Part shown: positions 6,001 through 53,246 of the stretch, one piece after another
How positions within the stretch are numbered: position 1 is the first letter of the stretch
Layout of the letters: the number at the start of each line of letters is the position of its first letter
From: Nymphaea colorata
Lineage: Eukaryota; Streptophyta; Magnoliopsida; Nymphaeales; Nymphaeaceae
NCBI RefSeq assembly: GCF_008831285.2
Contig: NC_045146.1
Location: 21,569,149-21,633,148 of the forward strand
Length of the DNA stretch: 64,000 nucleotides
Direction: 5' to 3'
Program-made: the position numbers and the translations under genes
The notes under the pieces: model-generated
The model's input: only the letters and a program-made list of their open reading frames with translations
The model's database searches: none
What the model was told of the DNA's origin: nothing

Positions 6001-8166
6001 CATGCATCACATTCATGAAACATTTGTTTTAGTGTTTTACGAATTTACAGACAGATTCACCAGACAATAATAATGCATGTTGCTGCATAAAACTCATTCC
6101 CCACAATCAGAAGCGAGTTGAATCTTGAAAGGCCATTTTCTTACAATATTCTCATACCATGAAGGATTTGAGTCACTATCTTATTGGAGTCAATTAATTT
6201 GATGAAGAAAAAAAATGTAACTGGCAAATAAGGTGTGACTTTGTAAGGACTTTCTTCAACCCTACCCAGCCTCTACCTCCTTCTCGTTGCTGGATCTGGT
6301 TATTGCTTAGTGTGGGTCGGGTTGGATCAATACACCATATCCATCCACCGCCAGCATGAAAACGATAGTTCACCGTGTAATTTATTCGCTTGCTTCTTCC
6401 CATTAATAGGGACCTCTTATTTGCCATTGGATTGACATTTCATCTTCTTCACATGTTAAAGCAACTGGTTGCTCAACAAGAAGCAGACCATTGTTGTCCA
6501 AGCATTATGAATACATATTATATGGAATCAATCTTCATTAACAAATATGTTTATTTTTCCATGAAAATAAAAATAAAAGTCACCCTGTTGTTGGTAGGTC
6601 TAGAAAATAACCAGGCTATGTGTTCAACTAGAAAGTGTTCTAGTCCAAACGTCCTACATTTGGGCTATGTTTGAAAATCTCAAAACCATATCCTAACCAT
6701 TTATATTGGCAAGTATGACACTTATGATGCAGGTGGCATGAGAAAAATGTGAAGGGCATCAAGCATTTGATCAACTTTCAATGTGGTCCGCAAAAAAGTT
6801 ATGAGGAGTCATTCTAATGTAACAAAATATAAATCTTTGCATTGTTAAGCATCATGAGACTTCCATGCTCACCCTTGTCACAAAATTAAAACTGGACGTC
6901 GGGTCGGATACCTGCTGGGTTTTGAGGCACCTGCCTGACGGTTCGAATATAAGATTATAATAAATATATAATATAAAATTATATTTAATATGTTCTATTC
7001 AAATTCTCAATATAAATATCATATTTATAAATGTAAATATTTTATATTAAAATTAGGTTGAGCGGGGTCAAAACCTGAACTTTGGTGGTCACGCCTGAGC
7101 TTCAAACCCGTCCGAGTCTGACTTCGAACCGGATGGGTTGGATCGGTCCTTAATTTCAACTTAGTCCATCCCATTGGCTGCCCCTTCTTCAATCGCCGCC
7201 GACTGGTTGTGGTCGCCAACTCCCCACCACCATGGAGTTTGGTCCCACGCGCAAACCCACAATATCGTGCTCCACCCAGCGTTTTCGACCATCGATCTTG
7301 AAAAATCGACGTCCGCACCGGTTCCACCAAATCGGATCCAGATTTTGCTCCCCATCTGCTCCAACCCTATGAAACGCTTCGCCGCCTCGTTCGAAAGCGC
7401 GGACCAGACCTGAGGTTCATTCCGACTCGTAGTAAAAAAAAAATCGGTTCGTCTTTTCACAAATCGAGTAACGCGTATCGCAATTGCAGCAGACTTGGCT
7501 GCAAAGATTGCAACTGCATTGTGATTCTTCAAGTCTTCGGATTCAAGTCCTGTTTAACTGACTGATATGGTACCGATCAAATTTAAATTATAAATTTAAA
7601 AGTCATGTTACTCATCCAATCTCATCTCTATCTTTCTTTTTTTTTTCTTTTTTTTTTTTTTTTTGCAAACTACCAAGAAAAGGAAGTAAATAGTTCAGAG
7701 AATTGAATATAACCCGGTATAGCCAAAAGCAAAATAAACTGCTGAAAGTCTCGCCGGAGACGAGATGGAAAGAGTTCACCTCCAGAACCCGATTCAGGCA
7801 ATTACGAGTCGGATCCCGGGATTTCCGATTCCGAGTGTCGCTGGACTGGGTTCGCCTTGGTCCGAAGACGAAGACCGGGACCTCTTGTCGGTGCAAAAAG
7901 AAAAGAAACGGAGACAGGTGGACTGACTGCAGGCCGTCAAGCAGGCTCATCCCGAGTCTCTCGCTCCTCTCTTCTTTTTATTGTCTTCTTTCCCTTGGTT
8001 TGTTTCTTTTTTCGTATCCGCTTCTCCGTTTGGTGATGGTTGTGGGAAGAAGACCGATAATCGTCTCCGGGTGAATTTCTTTGGGGGCTTTTCTTGCGAG
8101 TCGATGAAATTGTTCTTCCAATTTTGAGAACAGCTTAATTTGGGAAGTGGAATCACGAACGCGGTC
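1..8166. other. Gene-free AT-rich intergenic region
   Basis: No reading frame here has a recognisable domain or credible exon structure. The stretch is AT-rich with patches of higher GC (about 5110-5330 and 7060-7420) that contain overlapping open frames on both strands, none resembling a known protein. Landmarks are a short AT microsatellite near 3282-3302, a 9-bp-stem hairpin around 1636-1666, a segment ending in a hAT/MITE-like CCAAACAACCCC near 1852-1863, a possible transposon end at 4573-4583, and a poly-T tract at 7627-7664. The last few hundred bases must hold the promoter and leader of the TPR gene. The region is best read as decayed transposon and spacer DNA. Confidence 0.6.
7627..7664. 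repeat. Poly-T tract
   Basis: A nearly pure T run interrupted by single C bases, about 500 bp upstream of the TPR gene. It may be the poly-A tail scar of an inverted retroposon or a nucleosome-excluding promoter element; the sequence does not decide between these. Confidence 0.7.
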
Positions 8167-9892
8167 ATGAATTCGAACGCCAGAAGAATGAACGGTGGCG
8201 GTGCTCCAATTGGAGGAGGTGGATCTGCTGCGTCTCTGAAAATTTCGAGTTCGATTTCGGTCTCCCAAGTCGGCAATCTTCCAGGCCGTTGAACGACCAG
8301 AAGACGCAGTACTCATCATCATCATCATCATCTTATTCTTCATTTTCTTATTCCGGAAATCCACCCGCTTCAGGGCCAAACAAGCCCTCTTGGAGCCACC
8401 AGCCGGCTCCGGCTGCCCGGCCGGCGCAGGTGGGGACGAGGGATGCGGGGATCGGGAACCTTTCGGGGCCGACGTCGATGGTGGGTGATATCTTCGGCAA
8501 GAGTTGGTTGCAGCAGCCAATCTCTTCTTCGGCTTCGAAGACCGGAGTAGGTCAAGCGGGGATCGTGGGCACCAACCCGAATCTGTTCAGCGATCTCGTT
8601 GGCTCGGCGTTTGGTCAGGGAAAGAGCTCCAACGCCCCTCTGAAGGATTCTGCTCCGAAAGGATCGTTTTCGATGGGGAATTTGGCGGGATCGCTTCCGA
8701 AGTCGAATCCTTTGGGGTCGGCGAATTCGCGATCTTCTGAAAGTCTTGGGAGTTTTGCATCAGAAACCCATCAGTCAACGAATGGCTCATCTTCATTTGC
8801 AGCGAGCGGAAACAGCGATCCCTTTGGTTCTTTAGGAACGGGAAATTGGCGACCGTCCGGTAATTCTGGTTCTGTTCCTATGACGCAGATGAAGAAGAAT
8901 CCTGGCGTTTCGTCCTCTGAGAAATTGGGGGGCGACCCTTTTGCTTCTTTCGCCGATTTTTCCTCCAGGAAGCCACCTTCTGCTTCGCAACAATCTAGTT
9001 CCGCTGCAAGTAATTCAGATCTCGGATCTGGATTTGGGGATTTCCAGGCTGCACCTGCAGCCAACAAACCATCGTCCTTTTCTACCCCAAAGCAGTCCGA
9101 TTCGTTTGGAATTCCAACTCCAGGTACCTACTCGCAGGAACCGGCAGGTAAATCTGGCGGTGGTGATTCATTGGATATGTTGTTCGCATCTGCTTCAGCT
9201 GCTCAAGCTAGCGCTCATCAACCGGCTTCAGAGGTCGATGATTGGGGTTTCAGCTCAGAGTTTGGAGGAAGTGCCGATACGGGTACCACTACTGAGCTTG
9301 AAGGACTTCCACCACCGCCGGCTGGGGTGACAGCTTCCACAGCGAAGTCGAAGGGATTAGAGAACTATAAGCAGGGTCAGTTCGCTGATGCAATCAAATG
9401 GTTGTCATGGGCAATTACGTTGTTAGGGAAATCGGGTGACAATTCATCCAATGAGGAGGTCTTGACTTGCAGAGCTTCTTGTTATAAAGAAGTGGGAGAG
9501 TATAAGAAGGCAATTGCAGATTGTTCCAAGGTACGACATTGCATTGAGTTGCATTGCCTTATTTGATTGAAGTTGAATCTGTTTTCATCACTTTTCGAGT
9601 TTGCTATATTAAAAGTCTTACTGTGTTGTTACAAATGCAGATCCTGGTCTTGAGTATCATGTTCTTAAATTGCAGGTTGTAAACTTAGTGTTGTCTTGTT
9701 TTCAAAATGCAGGTCCTAGATCGGGACAGCAAGAACGTTGCAGTACTAGTGCAGCGAGCGCTTCTGTATGAGAGCACCGAGAAATACAAGCTTGGAGCTG
9801 AGGACTTGAGAATGGTGATGAAAATTGACCCGGGAAATAGAGTGGCAAGGGGTACACTCCATCGGTTGACAAAACTGGCAGACTATTCTTAG
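8167..9892 (+). CDS. TPR-domain protein with disordered, endocytic-motif-rich N-terminus; frameshift in exon 1
   Basis: Two exons: 8167-9530 and 9713-9892, joined by a 182-bp intron with donor AAG|GTACGA and acceptor TGCAG|GTCC; the phase is 0 and the join is seamless. The C-terminal roughly 125 residues form tandem TPR helices (residues such as GLENYKQGQFADAIKW, then CRASCYKEVGEYKKAIADCSK, then VLVQRALLYESTEKYKLGAEDL), a protein-protein interaction scaffold. The rest is Ser/Gly/Pro-rich, probably disordered, with repeated DPFGS, DPFASFADF, GFGDF and DDWGF motifs like those that bind clathrin-adaptor ear domains. The natural start is probably ATG 8167 (MNSNARRMNGGG), but that frame stops at 8290-8292. 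The long frame carries EFDFGL upstream and has no ATG until 8479. One extra A in the AAAA run at 8239-8242 would join the two into about 514 residues. This is either an assembly or sequencing error or a real lesion. Function beyond adaptor or scaffold is inferred; I did not recognise a named orthologue. Confidence 0.85.
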
Positions 9893-17277: not shown

Positions 17278-19596
17278 GTACATCAACAGAATTAATGGTT
17301 AAGAGCGGCTTATGGTTCATAAAGGCTGGAGCACAACGGTTGTCCATGCTTGTTATGTGGTAACTACACCGAGAATCTTGAGCAATTTGTTGGAGCTTAT
17401 GAAAAAGGAAATGCCTTCTCTTTCCAAAATCTCCTTTTCGCTTTACCCTTTCTACCTTTTTCCATTTTTCTTTTGTTCTTCTGATTAACTGTCATATGGA
17501 ACAGTACTCTCACACCATTAACTCAACAGCTCACATTGATCTCACCATTTGAGCTGTGACCAGAAGATGTCCCTTTCAAAAGTCACAAAATAGTGCTAGC
17601 ACATGGGTAATCAGCATTTCTGCTTCAGCAGTGTATGGGATCATGGGAACACAAAATGTGTACATATTCTAAAGCATTGTCTGCCCCAAAATAAAGCTGC
17701 CACCATAAAATAATCAAAAGGCAGCCCTTAACAAGAAACCCTACTTTTCATAAGCATGTCGTGTTCCTCTAATTACCAGTGATAGAGGAGGAGAAAAGAA
17801 ATCCAGTTTTGCCCTTGTTGAAAAGCAAAAAGAAATCTCAAATGTGCTGTTTCACGGACAACTGGAATTGACAATTTCTGCACTTAGAATGAGTAATGAG
17901 AAACAACTGGACTGGATTCCTGTCCAACCTACAAGAATTATGCCTTGGTAAAGTTTTGGGTTGGGCCATGCTGTATATGTATATATACACATATGCATTA
18001 ACTAGATGTGTATGTGCATGCATATATAGATGTATATAAAGTACAGCTTTCTCACATTATTGAGAGAAAAAATTATGCTCATAGCTGGACTGTTGCTTAA
18101 GCTTGACTCATTATTCTTCAAATCGTACAAAGAACAATTGGAGGTCAGGCTGGCTTTATCTCTACCACTTACGCGAACCAGTTGGTTTGGACAACACAAA
18201 TATAAAGGAAAAAAGTAAAGTAATCTCGTTTGATCTGGCAGCCATTATTGGAGAAGTGGCTGTCAATTATTCGGGGATTCGTATCTAACACCATATCCAA
18301 GTTCAAACTTAGAGAAAGAAATGACCCGGTTGGATGGCCAGCAAGTAGAGGACTATCTGAATTCTGTTTCAGAACAGCCTGTAGCTAATTTGGTATGCAT
18401 CTGCAATACTAAAATCATAAGCGAAACATCTGGATTTGGATGGATCCAGATCATTCTTATCGTGACCGGTTGTGTTATGTGATTTGCCAGTTTAAATCAT
18501 TCATATGGTTGAGATGTCATGCTAATGTAAATTTACATAATTATATACTGTACAAAGGACCAACTGGGAGGCATGTTCTTAAGAGGATGCACATGGGTGG
18601 AAATGGGGTACAACCATATTTTATGGTGGCAAAAAACATAGTGCTCCCCACCAACCTGAATATCATATTGCCCTCTTGGAAGCTTCTCATCTCATTCATA
18701 GTTTGAATTTGAAAAATAATCGCGTCTCGGCCATTTCTTGATAATCTATCACATTAGCATGCGAATCAAAAGTAAAACAACATGCCGAGAGCGTCCAATT
18801 CCTCCATAAACAAAGCCGAAATAATTAGGATTTGGGTCTTTGGAGGGTAATAAATGCCAACAATTATCTGTCATCGGGCCAACTTCTACATTAGAGTTTC
18901 GAAATTTGACAGGTCGATGAATTCAAAAAATGACGAGCATGTTCCTGTAGTTCAAAGAAGAAGACAAACTGTTCAACTGCCGAGCACTGTGCAGCAGTAA
19001 GAAACTTCCTGCTCAACCATATTCTCTCGAAAGCAAGAACATGCTACCTATTTCTTTAGCAGCTAAGCGAGCAGCCTACCCTCCTTAAGGGTTCTATGAA
19101 AAGGGACTAGTGGCCGAACCAGTTACTGAAAACGGCAATACTCCATATTTAAGAGACGGCAAACAGTTTTCTGACAGGCAGAAGTCTGCGTGAGAAGCCA
19201 ACAGAATTTTCTGCAGTCTGCCATTCACTTAGGCATTTAAGAGCCAAGGCACCATATGGTGAGTTAGATTTGTCTACCAAAATTCAGTTAAGGAATAACA
19301 TTTAGAAAAATCTATAATAACAACAGAAGTGGGGTCTGCTAGATCTACAGAGAGAAAGAGTTGCTTTTGAACGAAAAATGCATAAACTAATTCACTTGTC
19401 CGTGGGATATATCCGTCACATGTCAGATTACTTACATGGCTGAATGAAGCATGATCCTCATACTGTGCTATTCGGCTTAGTCGATTTTAAATACTCATCT
19501 TATAAAATGACGATGAATCTACTGCCTACTGTTCAACTGATATTTGGAATCTACCGTTCAGATTTCATGAAGATTAGGATAGTTAACGAAGGCCTC

Positions 19597-19679
19597 AATG
19601 CTGAACATTGAGGCATTTGTTATGTTCTGCTTGCAAAAGTTGCAAGCAGAACATAACAAATGCCTCAATGTTCAGCATT
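19597..19679. repeat. Perfect inverted repeat: 40-bp arms, 3-nt loop
   Basis: The left arm 19597-19636 is the exact reverse complement of the right arm 19640-19679, with only AAG between them. All 40 pairs are Watson-Crick. Pairing stops immediately outside the arms (C opposite C). The left arm together with its flank also contains a smaller palindrome, CCTCAATG/CATTGAGG, at 19593-19613. A transcript would fold into an almost loopless 40-bp duplex, a good Dicer-like substrate. Candidate explanations are a young MIRNA-like locus, a foldback transposon tip, or an assembly/library palindrome artefact. No matching target was found by eye in this window. Confidence 0.95.
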
Positions 19680-22600
19680 CGCTTTTGGTATCAGATGTAC
19701 GTTACATCCTAAATATGATCCAATTCCCAACAAGTGTTCTGGTCTGTTCTTCTGGCTAGAGGGTTGTGCTTAACAACCTAAAGTTGGAGGATGCATGTCG
19801 ATTACTCAGTACCCGCGATCTGTCTCTCATCACAAACTTTGCTTCAGAAAAAACAAGTACAATTAAGCTTGGTGAACCGGAATAAGGTTTTGTGCTACTG
19901 ACACATGTGCACGGGCACACACACAATTGCGTTTATTTGCTGGGATGATATAAAGTGCTTGGACTGCCATGCCTAAGTAGTCTAAGCCTCAAGTGCTTCT
20001 CATCTTTGCAAAGGGCAGAGGTTTAAGTCCTATACTTTATGACTGCAGCATTCTAGTGGAAGCCATTTTACTGAATTTGATATCTAAAAGGCAATTGTAC
20101 TACGTTGGCAGCTTAAGTATTAAATATCACTTACTTTTCGAGAGTTAAATGGGCTACATTTGCAGCATCCAAACAAGGAGTAATGACTTTGCATCTTACT
20201 CAGCTCACCAACTGCTCAATCAATTTACTGTGTGCCCCTGTTCTCTGTCCAAGCCAGGGGTTCGCCTTCTTCTCAAATAAGTGGGCTGAATAGCACCACG
20301 TCAACGGGGAACCATAGATCTAAAGTTCAGACAGGGTTGCTCTCTGCGGCCTGGCCAGAAGTTATAACTAGAAGCTTCTGGTTGTACTCCAGGGTTTGCT
20401 GGATTGGTCAGCTCGACCGCTTAGTTTGCTTCTATAAAGTATAAACAGAAGAAAAAAAAAAGGAAATTGCTTGGTTACTCATCATTGACTTGCTGCGTTA
20501 AATAATGAATGCTGAAGTAAGGAAACATCTTAAAATTGCTTAAATGCCGACCTTGCCAGTGCTAGTACATGATGGTAAAACCAACTTTGCCGGACGTTGA
20601 AATTTTACTTGAAGAAATCAGATAAAGAAGATCGATCGGAGAAATTTTCAGAGGCCAGCTTCAGAAATAAGTTATGAGAGTTATAGAATGCTTGTAATTA
20701 GCTAGAAAAGTTTTTTGTAATAAAATGCTGATAATTGTACGGGAAGAAGGGATCAACCTCGGAGATGGGCAATCTAAATCAGACCAGTACAGGATATCAA
20801 ATCTGTTGGTTTCTGTGTTGCTGTCTAAGAAAATGCCGCCAGAGAAGCACGAAACGGTCCTCAACTATCAAATAACTGTCCCGTATGTAGCCACTTTTTA
20901 TCACAAGTTTTCGATGCACTTATATCAATGTGAATGATTCACATGAGAAAGTGGCATGATGTTATCTTCTGTCTGTATTTCTGACATTTGTGAAACCAAC
21001 GCTTTCTTCCTTTTCTTGATTAGCAGTAAGCAAAATTTCCTTGTCTAGTGAGTCATTCTATTTTGAAAAAGCTAGCTACAGAGGATCTTGGTCCCACAAA
21101 GGCATCTTTACTGATGGATGGTATTCAAGGTGCAGGATTATTTGTTCATAATCGCAATCTTTGCATTCACCTCCAACATGCGCACTGTAACTGTGGGACC
21201 AAAAGGAGCATAAAGTGTAACTAGCTCTTCAAAATCTCAAGGCCAGCCAGAAAGGTTACCATCCAGTTTTGCAGTAAAGCTCTTCCAATGCTTTGGCATC
21301 TAAAGTGGTACATTTGGGTGCTGATGAAAAAAACTAAAAAAAAAGGGACAATCAAAGCACGTTGACCTAAGAAGATCGAGTTATATGTCATTTTCCAATG
21401 TTTTTTCCAAAAATCAGAAAGAAAATGGTGAAGAAATTTTCTGCAGAAAAAGAAATTGAAGGAAACACGAATTCTACAAGTCTTAATTTCCATAAAACGA
21501 GAGGCTTCAGTAAGGTGGCACTGGCACCACACAATTTCTTTTTTCTTCTGTAAAATGGTACCAGCAGGAAGGTGCTTCTTTGAATGGCGCGCTTGTGATT
21601 TTATGAAACACTGTGCGCCCCATCCTCCTCCCCTTGTTCTTTTGCTCTCTACACACGAAAGGGAAAGTAAAAAGGTTGAAAAGAAGAAGGAGACAATGGG
21701 ACCCGCCTTTGAGTAAAATGTAGGCGGCAGGCATGTGCACACAGCAAGAGGAAAATTATGAGGGAAATTAAACAATGGAAGGTAGGTAGTAACATGGGTG
21801 CCTTTACCTCGAGCTGGACTTTGCTGGCATGAAATAAGAAAGAATGGTGGTGTGCCTTCCATGACAGAACCATAAGCGCCATTTCCCTTCTTTTTCCTTC
21901 CTGTAATAAAAAAGAAGGGAAATTCATTTCTCAGCAGCATGTGAATATGAAAGAATCTGCAATCCCCAGATTGATTTGTGGGATGCCCATCTTTTCTTGG
22001 CAGGTTTTTTTTCTCAAACTTAGGCTGCGGTGTTGGGAATATTCAGAAGACAGGAAAGAAGTTGGAAAGAAAGCTCCCTCCATAGTAAGCATGAATTGTT
22101 TATGCCATATTTTAAGCCCAACAGCCTATGCCAACATGCTGCCCATTTGCCTAAAATGCCTAGGAAGGTTAAACAATAGAAAAAAAGCAGACCTAAGTTC
22201 TTTGCCCACTCTAAAAGTAAGATAAACCTTGGGGCCAGCTCAGGTTGTTCCAGCTGAAAGATTGGTCAACACTTCGAATCCTGCTGTGCACATCCATGCT
22301 TAAGAAGCAATTAATGGTTAGAAACTTAGAGCTCGTCACATTCGACCTATCAAGTGGTCAATTATTTTGTTGTTATAAGATGATAAACTTAGCTTTTCAT
22401 TGGGAAACGATCCAGTTTTGTTGTTTATTTAAAAATAATGTTTCATCTTTTCACTTGTTTCTTCATAGAAGAAAGTATGACGATCAATGCAGACCACAAA
22501 ACAAAAATAATAATAATAATAATAATAATAAAATGTTTCCAGCATGATCAATGCAGTTCAGAAAAACATGTGAACACCCAAATGTCTACAACCACATGTT

Positions 22601-28065: not shown

Positions 28066-28195
28066 TAGGTGTTCTGAAAATAACGTGTTCTTATTTCACG
28101 GAAGATTGCTTTTGGCTATACTCGATATTTTAGGTGTTCTGAAAATAACGTGTTCTTATTTCACGGAAGATTGCTTTTGGCTATACTCGATATTT
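28066..28195. repeat. Perfect 65-bp tandem duplication
   Basis: 28066-28130 and 28131-28195 are identical over all 65 bases (both begin TAGGTGTTCTGAAAATAACG). Identity indicates a very recent duplication, gene conversion or an assembly duplication. It lies immediately beside the GC-rich island at 28240-28720. Confidence 0.95.
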
Positions 28196-28239
28196 TTGTA
28201 CCGTTGAACTTGAATCTAAAAATTCTTGCTTCTTCGTAT

Positions 28240-32894: not shown

Positions 32895-33488
32895 TTATTG
32901 AACCATGGTGATGAACGAGCCAGCGTTGCCGGTGGAAGTTGGTGCCCCCTGCCTTGGGTACTGCGCCTCGTAGGCCGCCGGTATCCGCGTGCTTGGCTCC
33001 CTGTCGTCGTCCTCTTCGTCGTCGTCGTCTTCATCATCTCGCTCCTCATCGTCGTCGGCCTCGACGTTGTCGCTGTCGGGATCGTCCATGTCCATAACCG
33101 CCTGGTGCTGCAGTTTATGGCCCATCAACCCCTTCACAATGTCTTCTGGCTTCAATCCAAAGCCACAATAATTTCAATGAATTCGGAATGAAGGAAAACT
33201 AAAAAATGAACAACAATTGATTATTGATTCGACGACGAACTTGGTGCTTGTATTTTTGTCCCTTGAAGCTCAGAGGATCGACAGAACGAGCGACGCATAA
33301 GCCAAAGCGAGAACAATAATCACCGTGATCATGATTTGTGTTCATGCCTTTTCTTCTAAACCAAAAGCGTCCTCGCCCTCTCATCATTAGCACAAGATGA
33401 CAGAAACTGTGTGAGGAAATGACTAAACCAGTCTCCCCCCAACGGAAACTCCGGCATGACGGAGAGGCCAGTTTTGTCATTTCTCCTC

Positions 33489-33562
<74 letters not shown>

Positions 33563-36206
33563 TCACGATCATTTTTACCTTCTTCGCTCCCACGCCGTTG
33601 CCTTCTTCCACTGCGCCCGAGTAGAAGCCTGCCCCGTTGTTGCTGTTGTTTTTGCCCTTCTGTCCCTGCATTGCTGATCCGCCGTCACCCCCACGGCCGT
33701 TTTCTCCGTCGCCGCCTTCTTTCTCAGGCGGGGCAGCCGATATCGGGGTTGGCATGATCGCCAAGATGTCGCCGCCGGTGTGGTGCTCTGGGGGCAGGCT
33801 TGGCTCGCGGGGCGACTCTAGGTCGGGCTTGCTTGAGTTGCCGCCGAGGATCTTCTTGCGGTAGAGAGCGTCAAGCTGGGGGAAGTAGGGGCACGTCTTC
33901 GAGTCCTCCGGCCGCTTCTTGTTGCTCTCCTTCACTTTCTTGTAGTACTTGTTGATGTTCTCCCACTTCTCTTTGCATCTCTTGGCGCTGCGCTTATAGC
34001 CCATCTTCCCCATCTCCGCAGAGATCTCCTCCCAAAGTGGGCCCTTGGGTCCCGCTTCCTGGTACCTCGACTCGAGCCCACTCCGGAGATTGATCAGCGC
34101 TAGCACCTCCACTTTCGGCCACCGGGAGCTCGCCGTTTCGAACCCCCCCGAGCACGGCTCCTGCTCGTGAGCTACGATATCGGTACTCGACGATGGCATT
34201 GGCCTTATCTCTACCTGTTGCTGCTGCTGAGGCGGAGGTGGCGGCGGCTGCGGCTGGTGGTGTTGGTTGTGGTGGTGCTGCTTGTGCGGCGGCTGCACGG
34301 CTGGAATTGTGACGACGGGAGCGGTGGAAACAGCCGGCGCGAGCTGCTGGGGGGGAGGCGGCTGTGGAGGAGGTGGGAGGTGGATAGTTTGGCCGGTGAA
34401 CTTCTGAAGGAAGGCGATCATGGCGGCGTCCCTCGATGCCGACATTGCGCGTTCTTGAGCAAGAACGTCGAGCTCCTTATTTAGCCTAGCCATCTCTTGG
34501 CGTTTCCACGCTTCTTCCCTTATCATTCTGTCTTCTTCTCTCTTTTCTATGGTCTCTAGAAACTTTTGCTGCAGCGCCACCTGCTTCTCCACCACCTGCT
34601 TCATCAGCCCCTCGAAGAAATTCATCATTTTCCGAGTGCTCGACTCGGAAGATCTCTTGCGCTTTCTATGGCTTTGTTCCTGGATTTCCTCGGACGAGTC
34701 TCCGGACGTTGAGGACCCGCCGGAGGATAGGCTGATCTCGCGGCTCAGATCGGTGGGGATCCTCGTTAAAATTGGTGGTCCGGGGATGGTCGGCCGGCTC
34801 GGTTGGCTAGGGGCGGCCGCGGTTGTGGCACTGCTTGGCTGAGTCTGCATTCTTGTGGCACTCCCCATGACACCACTTGCCACGACAGTGGGGCTGTGAA
34901 TTGTACTTGCGGCTGCTGGTGGTGGCGGCGCAGCCACCGTGGTGACCGCTACTGGTGTTGTGGTAGAGGTGGAGATGGCGTTGGAGGTGCCACTGGTACT
35001 GCCATGGAGCGCCTCCAATTGCTTAAAAAATCGGTAGTTCTTTCCGTCCTGCCGGCCGGCCCTTCCTTCCTTGGTCCTCTTGTAGTACTTGTGAACGTTC
35101 TCGAATTTCTCTTTGCACTTCTTGGAGCTTCTGTTGTACCCCAATTCCGCTAGCTTCCTGTGAATCACAAGCAAGGGTAGGGCGTGAGTTCAGGGATATA
35201 GAGCAAATGGCATAATTGCTTCGTGCCTATAGATAGACCTGTAGTGAAAAAGGAATCCAGGACGCGGAATATTATATTTGCAATTTGGGTGTCCTTTTTT
35301 TCTTCTTCTTTTTGGACCAAAGATTGAAGGCCAGGTGATGATAATTCTGATTGGTGGTGGAGATGGAGATGACGATGAGGGTGATGATGGTGAGGGTGAT
35401 AGAAGTGAGATAGTCGGAGAGAATAGCATCTCCCTAGCAGCTAACAGCAAACAACAGAGTCCCCTATGATCCGTGGTACGACATAATTGAATCGTTACCA
35501 GTCTTTTTCTCTATTTTCCCCCTTTTTTTCGGTATATCGGACTATGTACTGAAACCCTTGCAAGCAGCACGGTTGTCCGTGAAGTTTTCTTCGTTACCTG
35601 GATCTGCGAATCCCTCACAACCTAAATTTAGAGAGAGGGAGAGAGAGAATGAGAGTTGAACGCCAAGGGTTCTGTGTTCGTTGAATTCGTTGTAGGTCCA
35701 GTGTTGAGAGACTATGGACTGATTGAGAGAGGTTGCTGGGTCTCCATCGCATTCACAGAAAGCAGAAGGGAGGAGGTGGAGAAGCGATTTCGTGGTGGTA
35801 GAGAGCCATACCTCGACACATCTTCCCAGAGAGGGCCCTTGAGGGTGGCGTCGCGGAAAGCGGCGTCCATTTCCGACCTGATCTTCAAGAGGGCGAGAGT
35901 CTCCTGCCTCGGCCACCGGTTCCCACCAGCTCCCCTCTCGGCCTCCTCCCCCGCAAGCGCCTCATCGTCGGGGAAGCCACCCCCCGCCCCCACGGGCACC
36001 AACTCCTCGAAATTGGCCGATCTGGCTGGCGGCCTCGAGCTGATCGGAGACGCGGCCTCCGCCAGTGGCTGCTGCTGCTGCTCCGAGTGTTGGTGCTGAG
36101 AGGTCGATATGTCGTGGCCGCCGGAAATTCCCATCATGTGGCCCCGTCCCCCGGCGGCCCCTCCCCCATACTGCGTCACTTCATATGGAGACCCTCCTTG
36201 CTGCAT
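32895..36206 (-). CDS. GTL1: GT-2 / GTL1-like trihelix transcription factor
   Basis: Three exons on the minus strand: 36206-35812, 35157-33579 and 33149-32895. Splice sites are AG|GTATGG...CACAG|GAAG (intron 654 bp) and AAG|GTAAAA...TGAAG|CCAG (intron 429 bp); phases close to give 742 residues. Order: Gly/Gln-rich start with the conserved SPISSRPP; first trihelix DNA-binding domain about 97-182 (RWPRQETLALLKIRSEMD, LWEDVSRKLAELGY, split by intron 1); KRKR nuclear signal about 297; central helical region about 315-387; His/Pro/Gln-rich linker; second trihelix about 477-565 (RWPKVEVLALINLRSGLE, CKEKWENINKYYKK); KPEDIV motif, acidic tract and ITMVQ terminus. This matches Arabidopsis GTL1/DF1, nuclear GT-element binders; GTL1 represses SDD1 and restrains ploidy-linked cell growth. 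Orthology to GTL1 rather than DF1 or GT-2 is inference. A long CU repeat lies just inside intron 2. Confidence 0.95.
33490..33556. repeat. (AC)n-(AG)n repeat inside intron 2 of the trihelix gene
   Basis: Plus strand reads CA dinucleotides (33490-33498) then about 29 GA units (33499-33556). On the coding strand this is a CU run beginning 22 nt after the 5' splice site (intron starts at 33578). If the intron is retained, the reading frame continues as a Ser-Leu repeat and stops at 33479-33477. Confidence 0.9.
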
Positions 36207-45900: not shown

Positions 45901-48354
45901 CATTATTTGCATTTAGATTTGCTTATCTTGTATGGATATTGGGTATCATATCCTAATTTAAATCTTAGGAGAATTTGTATAGCAGAATTAGGGTTCCTGT
46001 TTCTTTTGAAAGTGTTCATTACCAAGTCCTTGGCAGGGCATTGCAAGTTTGGTATTTTTACTTTTCCTCGTATATTTTTCTTTCACTTAATTTGTTGTGT
46101 TATAACTAGATGCCACTATGAGCACTTAATATCTGCATTAAGATCTTGAAGTAACTTACTCAAAAAGCACATAACGCGGAATGAAGGCAGCATCTGAGAG
46201 AAAAAAGACAACCACAACATAATTTTTTGTCTTTTTCTTTTTATTCTTTGAAGAAAAGATCAAAATTTTGCAGACAAGGTATACTGCTTAGTGAAATATT
46301 GCTACGCCTTTTGTGTACATAAGGATGTGCTTGCATGATCGGGAGATCTTTTTGTGGATCAGATAAAGTTGTCCAACAACTGGTTGGACCCCTTGGGATC
46401 TGATATTAATTTTATCCCTAGAATATACATGTGGTAAATCTGGAAAGGGTTGCTCGAGATAACTTTTTTCTGCATCCTAATGGTTTACAGAACCCAGACT
46501 AAAAGCAGGATACTAATATTAAATTAGATAAATTATTCGACGATGAAAACATTAAAAGTGGAATCCTCCTACTTGTAATTTGCTTGAGTAGATCGTCTCA
46601 ACTTTGCGTTACCTTTGCTAGCAGTGTTCATGGCAAAAGTCGTCTGAGTCAACTTGTGACTTGCCTGGGACGATCCGGGTCGGCCCTAACTTAGTCTACA
46701 TTGTAGGGTCAAACACATTGAGCTGTTGACTTGACTCACCCAAACCAGTAAAAAACTGACCGGGTCAGCTGAGATTTGTGGTTGACTTGACCGATCCGGT
46801 CAATTTAGACTCTCTTAGTTATGGTTAAAGGTCACCACCAAGTTGACTTGCCGGACTCACCGAGACGTTTTTGGCAAGTCCGATACTCTTGAAGAGAGAA
46901 CTATTATTCGAAGACGGATCGGTTTCCTTGGTGTAACACTGCATTCAAAGAGTTCATCTACCAATTTGATGTGTGCCAGGAAAAATGTCAATGGACAAAA
47001 GAAATCGTCTGCCCCAGTGATCGTAGTATGTAGTATGGCCACTCATAATTAAACCAGTACTGGAACTTGAACTTTCAGTCCTGCCAGCCAAGTTAGGGGG
47101 TGAGCTTTATTATAATATCTGCTTTTGCTGTTAAAATTATCATTATATGTTCCTATTTCAATGTATGAGCATTGCAAAAGAACAAATTGCTTGTTGAAAA
47201 TCAAAAACAGGTTAGAAAAAGACACATGAAAGCGAAACTGGGAACTACAATTTCCTCTCTGTCATAATCTAAGTCAGAAAATCTCAACGTCAGCCGGCCC
47301 CTCGTAGAAACATTGCAAAGGCGTCAGTTGGTCGTCCTCGACCATAGATTTTTGCCCACTGTGTTTGGCTCCATAAGTTGGTGATATGGAATATCGATCA
47401 TATGGTCTGTATCACGAGAGATTTCGTCAGCCATTCGTACTGGAGGAGAACCATATTTGGAGAAAGATCTAAGGAATCGGGTATAGGTTATATCAAGTTA
47501 TGATTTGGGGCCCCTGGTTTGTTTGGAAACAGTAGCAGCTGCTTGATGTGCATGGGCTGACAACGATACTAATGGCCAGGAGGGTCACCTTGCAACTTGT
47601 CCTACGAATTTAGGCTTGCGGAAAATTTCCGTGATGTTAATGAACAAGACATACTTCTAGTTATTAACAATATCTTTCGCTTCGTTTCGTTGAAGCCGCG
47701 TCAGAAGTATCTGCAGGGATATGATCCACCAGCCTGCTAGTTATTTTTATGAGGCATAAGCAGAAGAATATTTGAAATAACCGGCTAGTATTCTCGTGAT
47801 TGGTGTAGCCTCAAAAGAGTATGTTTTCCATAAGGAAATGGGTCGAGGTTCGAGGATTTGTTTGTAGCAAAATAGTCCATGAACGATTCCTATCCTTCAG
47901 ATGCCACATGAAAACAACGCATTGGGTGTCCTTCTATTTACGTATTCATAGTGTATAATAAGTACTGAATTTGCGACAAACTCCCAAGGTCAGATGGAAA
48001 AAACTAGAAAAGTTGCACATATCTGGCGTCCAACCTGGTGAGATTGTCCAAGCTTTTGTCTAACAGCGTTTGAAATGCTTAGACTTGATACCTTTGCAAA
48101 ACGAGTTATCCAGGTAGTCAAACTTGTCCTTGAGATCCTCCGTAAGGTATACACACAAGTACAAAAGCTTTCAATGGCAAAAAGTGCCCACCACGGGATT
48201 TGGACTTTTGGTGTCCTGTCCAACTAGGCAAAGAAATGCGTGCTGCAGCAGCTAAAATTCGTCCATACAATCACTTGTTCATGGAATCACTATAAAGGGA
48301 CAACAGGGGCAATTACACACATACTCGTTTTCCAAACACGAGAAGCACGTTCTG

Positions 48355-48548
48355 CAAATGCTAAAGAACATAAAGAATTAGATCTTGCATACAGGTTTAG
48401 AATTGAAACCTGCAGCAGGAGATAAACCTGCAACCAAACAACCTTATTCTTTGCCTTCTCTTTTTCTATTGGAACGTACTTCTTCATAACAGCAGGTTCA
48501 AATAGGGCATGGTCGACACTGAGGACTTTTAGGCTCAGTTGTATGATT
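48355..48548 (-). pseudogene. Exon-like segment, arm 1 of a distant inverted duplication
   Basis: This segment is repeated in inverted orientation at 52819-53008 with high but imperfect identity. Read on the minus strand it translates as coding-like sequence, ALFEPAVMKKYVPIEKEKAK followed by NKVVWLQ, ending near a CAG|GTTTAT donor-like site. The charged, protein-like character suggests a captured or dead exon. I do not recognise the parent family. Sequence outside the arm does not match around arm 2. Confidence 0.5.
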
Positions 48549-52818: not shown

Positions 52819-53008
52819 AATCATACAACTGAGTTTAAAAGTCCTCAGTGTCCATGCCCTATTTGAACCTGCTTTTATGAAGAAGCACCTTCTAATGGAA
52901 AAAGAGAAGGCAAAGAATAAGGTTGGCTGGTTGCAGGTTTATCTCCTGCTGCAGGTTTCAATTCTAAACCTGTAAGCAAGATCTAATTCTGAATGATCTT
53001 TAGCATTT
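52819..53008 (+). pseudogene. Exon-like segment, arm 2 of the inverted duplication
   Basis: Reverse-complement homologue of 48355-48548. On the plus strand it reads ALFEPAFMKKHLLMEKEKAK then NKVGWLQ, with a few replacements relative to arm 1. It lies about 240 bp beyond the stop codon of the DUF604 gene and on the opposite strand, so it may fall within that gene's 3' UTR as antisense sequence. No ATG or upstream exon is recognisable. Confidence 0.5.
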
Positions 53009-53246
53009 GAAAACCATGCCCACCCAAATCAACGGACCACCTTAGTAGGAAGTTACAGGAATCTGAATTCAAAAAGGTATGGACGATTTAGGAAGATTGC
53101 TTTAATAGATGGTGGGCTTCAAGAATCTATGATGCTGTAAAGAACCTTCAATGTCAATTGCACCACACGTATAAAGTAAATCCACCTCTTAAAGCTGCCA
53201 GAATCATTCTCCGAGGAAAAAAGCAAAAATAGGTACTCAGCCATAT

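Follow-up and report, generated by a model that had tools for sequence, protein, structure and literature searches.

A perfect hairpin at positions 19597 to 19679, in gene-poor plant DNA, is a real, rare and explicable feature of the 64-kb stretch of DNA analyzed here (contig C9, positions 21569149 to 21633148; hereafter, the window). We put at roughly 60% the probability that it is a recent local fold-back mutation at an existing quasi-palindrome. The locus combines perfect arms, a tiny loop and an overlap with an older hairpin, and we found neither another copy of it nor the hallmarks of a mobile element. Which arm was the original, which polymerase acted, when it acted and whether the product lacks a function are matters of inference.

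A perfect 40-bp hairpin that is rare in the sampled DNA

The left arm of the hairpin (positions 19597 to 19636, forward strand) and its right arm (positions 19640 to 19679, reverse strand) are exact reverse complements, matching at 40 of 40 positions, and are separated by the 3-nt loop AAG (positions 19637 to 19639). The original prediction of a 40-bp perfect repeat with a 3-nt loop was therefore exact in pairing, loop and coordinates. It also held that pairing stops abruptly at both edges. Exact pairing is indeed confined to the 40 bp, but the RNA fold has a weak outer extension, in which positions 19681 to 19687 (forward strand) pair with positions 19587 to 19593 beyond a 3x1 internal loop. 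This extension has seven pairs, two of them G-U, and it may be a chance product of folding. If the locus were transcribed, the transcript would be predicted to form the 40-bp stem plus these seven weaker outer pairs.

Perfect arms of at least 40 nt with a loop of at most 12 nt are expected by chance 2.9e-18 times per 64 kb and 1.9e-14 times per 408 Mb, and in 10 sequences simulated from the window with a first-order Markov model the longest perfect arms were 9 to 15 nt. We then surveyed perfect hairpins (arm of at least 13 nt; loop of at most 12 nt) in 293,703 sampled bases, made up of the window together with three regions of 9.9 kb and twenty 10-kb samples from contig C9. The survey returned 192 reports, overlapping ones included, from which a low-complexity filter of our own left four hairpins, with arms of 40 (the hairpin described here), 18, 15 and 13 nt. 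By that filter, it is the sole complex perfect hairpin with an arm longer than 18 nt in the 294 kb sampled. Within the window, the perfect short-loop hairpins that follow it in length are AT repeats (arms of up to 18 nt) and one purine/pyrimidine tract (arm of 15 nt).

An older imperfect hairpin shares the left arm

A second, decayed hairpin spans positions 19583 to 19623. Its 5′ arm (positions 19583 to 19600, forward strand) pairs across the loop CTGAA (positions 19601 to 19605) with a 3′ arm (positions 19606 to 19623, reverse strand) that lies within the left arm of the perfect hairpin. Pairing is Watson-Crick at 15 of 18 positions, or 16 of 18 counting one G-T pair. The 5′ arm also resembles, in direct orientation, a portion of the perfect hairpin's right arm: TTAACGAAGGCCTCAATG in the left flank is a diverged version of ATAACAAATGCCTCAATG, which lies 70 nt downstream in that arm. 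Read in this way, the locus consists of three copies in alternating orientation, one decayed and two identical, and the decayed copy is most simply taken to be older than the two identical ones. The original prediction had stated that nothing else in the window explains the perfect hairpin; an older imperfect hairpin overlapping its left arm contradicts that statement.

Five sites in the window have at least 15 of 18 pairs with a loop of 3 to 12 nt. They are the older hairpin, the perfect hairpin, two AT/CT repeats and one purine/pyrimidine-rich site; the Markov control gave a mean of 0.275 such sites per 64 kb (40 sequences). The fold of the older hairpin has a z-score of −4.81, equaled by 0 of 200 shuffles, and the whole alignment was equaled by 9 of 20,000 shuffles. 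The corresponding figures for random draws, in which draws near the locus were skipped yet counted in n, were 31 of 20,000 random 41-mers for the whole alignment and 2 of 3,000 random window 30-mers for the anchored extension outside the perfect hairpin. All of these values are optimistic, because the older hairpin was spotted post hoc. A cruder, position-blind test of flank similarity gave a weak result: 529 of 4,000 random 30-mers equaled the left flank against either arm.

No convincing donor or second copy in the genome

We searched the whole genome (407.8 Mb; 783 contigs) using DNA similarity searches that pass over very common words, and using pattern matching. A 281-bp query yielded only its self match (E of at most 0.001), and a 4-kb query yielded diverged copies of pieces of the flanks and none of the hairpin itself. 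The 40-nt arm, with up to three mismatches allowed, matched once in the forward and once in the reverse orientation, both self matches; the reversed-pattern control gave 0 matches. A donor gene or repeat family was thus rejected as a source at the level of the 281-bp, 4-kb and 40-nt searches, each of which returned only itself for the hairpin. The proposal that the arm be used to find a parental locus has been carried out, and it turned up no convincing parent.

An inner 21-mer of the arm, again with up to three mismatches, had 28 matches in the genome, two of them self matches, compared with three for the reversed-pattern control. The 26 non-self matches are an excess for which we found no explanation. 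By coordinates, none of them lies near an oppositely oriented partner match. Nine of the 26 are one identical sequence belonging to a repeat family. That family carries GTCATTTGTAATGTTATGCTT (18 of 21 positions identical to the inner arm) at C8:1503392, C13:9938760, C11:23431247 and six other places; the three copies that we read are mutually 89 to 96% identical over about 219 nt and have no long match to the hairpin locus. Flanks were read for 12 of the 26 matches, including those three, and BLAST found no resemblance to the hairpin locus beyond 31 nt among the 12, the best being a C12 match with 26 of 31 positions identical and a C2 match with 22 of 24. With looser gapped scoring, the C12 match extends over 62 columns, including part of the older hairpin, with a score of 47, the other 11 scoring 30 to 43. 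We treat these short arm resemblances, those on C12 and C2 included, as probable chance, a judgment made without a formal test. Because the C12 sequence aligns loosely over 62 columns, a distant donor stays conceivable.

At the border combinations tried around the hairpin, we found no target-site duplication of 4 to 12 nt; 46 of 200 pairs of shuffled flanks likewise had none. TC and CG are the bases directly at the borders. With an arm that matched nowhere else in the genome within three mismatches, no target-site duplication of 4 to 12 nt found and no Rfam family reaching its cutoff, we recognize no repeat family and no donor gene.

Flanking paralogues and gene setting

A segment of the left flank (positions 19447 to 19567, forward strand) has a 77% identical copy at C2:33820559-33820682. 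Significant homology stops some 15 nt short of the older hairpin, and the C2 copy has no hairpin. Since the match ends before the hairpin border, this paralogue does not provide a clean empty site, and we rejected it as one. Scores for the C2 copy against the window were 147.5 for the whole sequence, 154.0 with the hairpin removed and 143.5 with the right arm and loop removed; the last of these does not favor a one-arm ancestor. Extension of the homology to position 19597 was equaled by 184 of 3,000 random placements, and the similarity of the C2 copy to the arm and right flank was no better than that of shuffles (396 to 1,846 of 2,000; 460 of 500). The 4-kb query found further copies: positions 20119 to 20299 and 19887 to 19925 match C8:7378242-7378448 at 77 and 87%, positions 18054 to 18222 match C2:14545549 at 81%, and positions 17974 to 18037 have a short match on C15. 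The segments at 19447 to 19567, 19887 to 19925, 20119 to 20299 and 18054 to 18222, which have no recognized coding, are perhaps remnants of genome duplication or old transposon pieces.

We scanned 10 open reading frames (ORFs) of the window with Pfam. The closest supported ones on either side of the hairpin are a TPR ORF (positions 8139 to 9566), roughly 10 kb leftward, and a Myb/SANT-like (trihelix) ORF (positions 33477 to 35189), 13.8 kb to the right; DUF604 ORFs are also among the Pfam matches, and this gene content suggests a plant. Inspection by eye of ORFs of at least 50 amino acids between 9.4 and 30 kb revealed no convincing coding ORF. A scan for bacterial promoters and terminators has no bearing on a plant locus. 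Elsewhere in the window, a 65-bp unit is present in 2.0 copies at positions 28066 to 28196 with 100% matching, a second apparently very young local duplication, and positions 48345 to 48512 and 52852 to 53019 form a 168-nt inverted pair, 91% complementary and 4.3 kb apart.

Origin of the perfect hairpin

In the fold-back reading, DNA synthesis would have crossed the pre-existing quasi-palindrome at positions 19583 to 19623, and the polymerase would have switched template just past it, turning within 3 nt (AAG). Forty nucleotides would then have been copied back on the polymerase's own strand or on the sister strand, through the older hairpin's 3′ arm and its loop. Back-copying would have halted at position 19597, four bases inside the older 5′ arm, where the polymerase would have rejoined the original template. 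This single step would add about 40 nt and leave two identical inverted arms. As a fold-back would have it, one arm is the exact reverse complement of its neighboring sequence (40 of 40 positions), and the origin is local, with self matches only for the 281-bp query and for the 40-nt arm with up to three mismatches.

Short-range template switches, described by the four-point model of Loytynoja and Goldman, likewise place a reverse-complement copy beside its source (PMC8794818 and PMC7954356, both cited here in part). According to the cited sections, template switching can form a perfect stem by a single event, human MIR633 being a case in which this was deduced (PMC8794818). The hairpin resembles such mutations in its perfect stem, for which one event would suffice, its tiny loop and its position adjoining a pre-existing structure. 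In a subset of great-ape template switches, structure-forming potential precedes the event, as that portion of the source has it (PMC7954356); the older hairpin here fits this pattern. Unlike in those mutations, the putative event at positions 19597 to 19679 is read from its product, and the copied 40 nt is well over the great-ape median of 12 nt, with a maximum of 128 nt, given in the same excerpt (PMC7954356). By that comparison, 40 nt would be long for a template-switch event, which counts against the reading that we prefer. The cases treated in the cited parts of these sources are human microRNAs, rRNA genes and great apes, whereas the present hairpin is a plant locus (PMC8794818; PMC7954356). 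A further possibility, doubtful on present evidence, is that this is a serial fold-back site, at which a first hairpin, itself the product of a fold-back, decayed and its remnant seeded a second fold-back that made the perfect hairpin sharing an arm with it.

The second arm could instead be filler from the repair of a double-strand break: a resected 3′ end would have snapped back, polymerase theta would have copied 40 nt of flank, and the end would then have been joined. The product would be identical to that of replicative template switching. The polymerase-theta study on which this comparison draws was reportedly done in C. elegans. It provides, in the part cited, a precedent for reverse-complement inserts for which a single break end served as both primer and template, and these resemble the hairpin in being inverted inserts templated by the flank (PMC5068794). 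The inserts described in that part are, however, below 25 bp overall, with some stretches longer than 20 bp; snap-back accounts for a minor part of them, and templated inserts carry about one error per 30 bp (PMC5068794). The present copy is longer than most and has no copying errors (compare PMC5068794, as excerpted). By our own arithmetic, an error-free 40-nt copy is possible, with a chance of about one in four at one error per 30 bp. We regard repair by polymerase theta, the main rival, as unlikely and as the less likely of the two routes, replicative template switching being preferred. An artefact of assembly, cloning or library preparation, in which a fold-back chimera added a false second arm, is quite improbable. 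A perfect foldback is difficult to copy, and its presence in an assembled contig is by itself no proof, but 83 bp fits inside one read, and an artefact leaves the older imperfect hairpin at the same spot unexplained. A read folded back over a whole molecule would not yield the locus, because its two flanks are different DNA. Distinct flanks and the related older hairpin thus argue against the palindromic artefact that the original prediction had raised.

Human MADE1, a palindromic miniature transposon that gave rise to mir-548 (Rfam RF01061), is a near-perfect hairpin of about 80 bp. The perfect hairpin has that size and shape, and it scores 54 bits against the Rfam mir-548 model (cutoff, 90), mostly through pairing. 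Little sequence is otherwise shared, and unlike MADE1, the hairpin has no second copy that could be found in 408 Mb (281-bp query; 40-nt arm with up to three mismatches) and no target-site duplication of 4 to 12 nt, with TC and CG as its border bases. The 26 non-self inner 21-mer matches have no nearby opposite partner by coordinates, and the 12 with flanks read have no BLAST resemblance longer than 31 nt. Neither the several genomic copies nor the 4- to 12-nt duplication expected of a miniature inverted-repeat or foldback element was found, and a transposon, or the foldback-element tip suggested earlier, is scarcely credible for an arm that occurs, within three mismatches, only here.

Age of the arms

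Substitution rates are taken as 4e-9 to 1.3e-8 per site per year. At these rates, 0 differences in 40 sites place the 95% upper age of the arms at about 9 to 3 million years, although repair between the arms could make the hairpin look younger than its true age. The earlier view that the hairpin is either very young or maintained stands, and the evidence leans toward very young. The accompanying argument from instability is weaker than claimed, since the palindromes treated in the cited part of one source have arms of at least about 100 bp (PMC3855049).

Function as a small-RNA locus

The stem could belong to a working or nascent small-RNA gene, in which case Dicer-like enzymes would process its transcript to small RNAs of 21 to 24 nt, while the stem itself would be preserved by selection. 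Its fold energy is −76.3 kcal/mol (z-score, −15), and by geometry the stem holds one 21-nt duplex with stem to spare on each side. In maize, regions with miRNA-like structure have a higher diversity of mapped small RNAs, according to the cited extract (PMC10760457). At curated gathering scores, Rfam gave 0 matches in the 64-kb window. Permissive scores were, among others, 59 of 74 bits for MIR6288, 54 of 90 for mir-548 and 37.8 of 40.6 for mir-130, the last being closest to its cutoff. Several of these subcutoff matches occur on both strands, and in the five alignments shown the agreement is mostly one of pairing; the families are plant, human and other ones from unrelated hosts, mir-130 being an animal family. 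With all scores below curated cutoffs, a known RNA family was rejected for the hairpin.

Young MIRNA loci born of inverted duplication offer one close comparison, and the hairpin shares with them a plant foldback of precursor-like length (z-score, −15). It differs in that its pairing is perfect and no close parental gene was found (281-bp query; 40-nt arm with up to three mismatches), the best arm resemblances being short ones of 26 of 31 positions (C12) and 22 of 24 (C2); in the cited passage, moreover, perfectly paired stems are said to serve DCL1 poorly as substrates (PMC1790633). A search of the main text of the available papers for six arm-derived words of 19 to 21 nt gave no occurrence. 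We consider a small-RNA gene very doubtful; the hairpin is probably not a gene and without function.

Significance

Taken alone, the hairpin is one ordinary mutation. It is also the sort of raw hairpin in which small-RNA genes could begin. How new microRNA genes acquire their perfect stems is debated, with inverted duplication of genes, transposons and replication slips all proposed, and a perfect hairpin overlying an older, decayed one, with no donor found, offers a concrete case in a plant on which to test the replication-slip route. If the hairpin segregates, the age of a newborn hairpin, its starting sequence and its first small RNAs would be measurable. Serial fold-back, if true, would make such sites self-renewing sources of perfect stems, from which new plant small-RNA precursors could arise without a donor gene.
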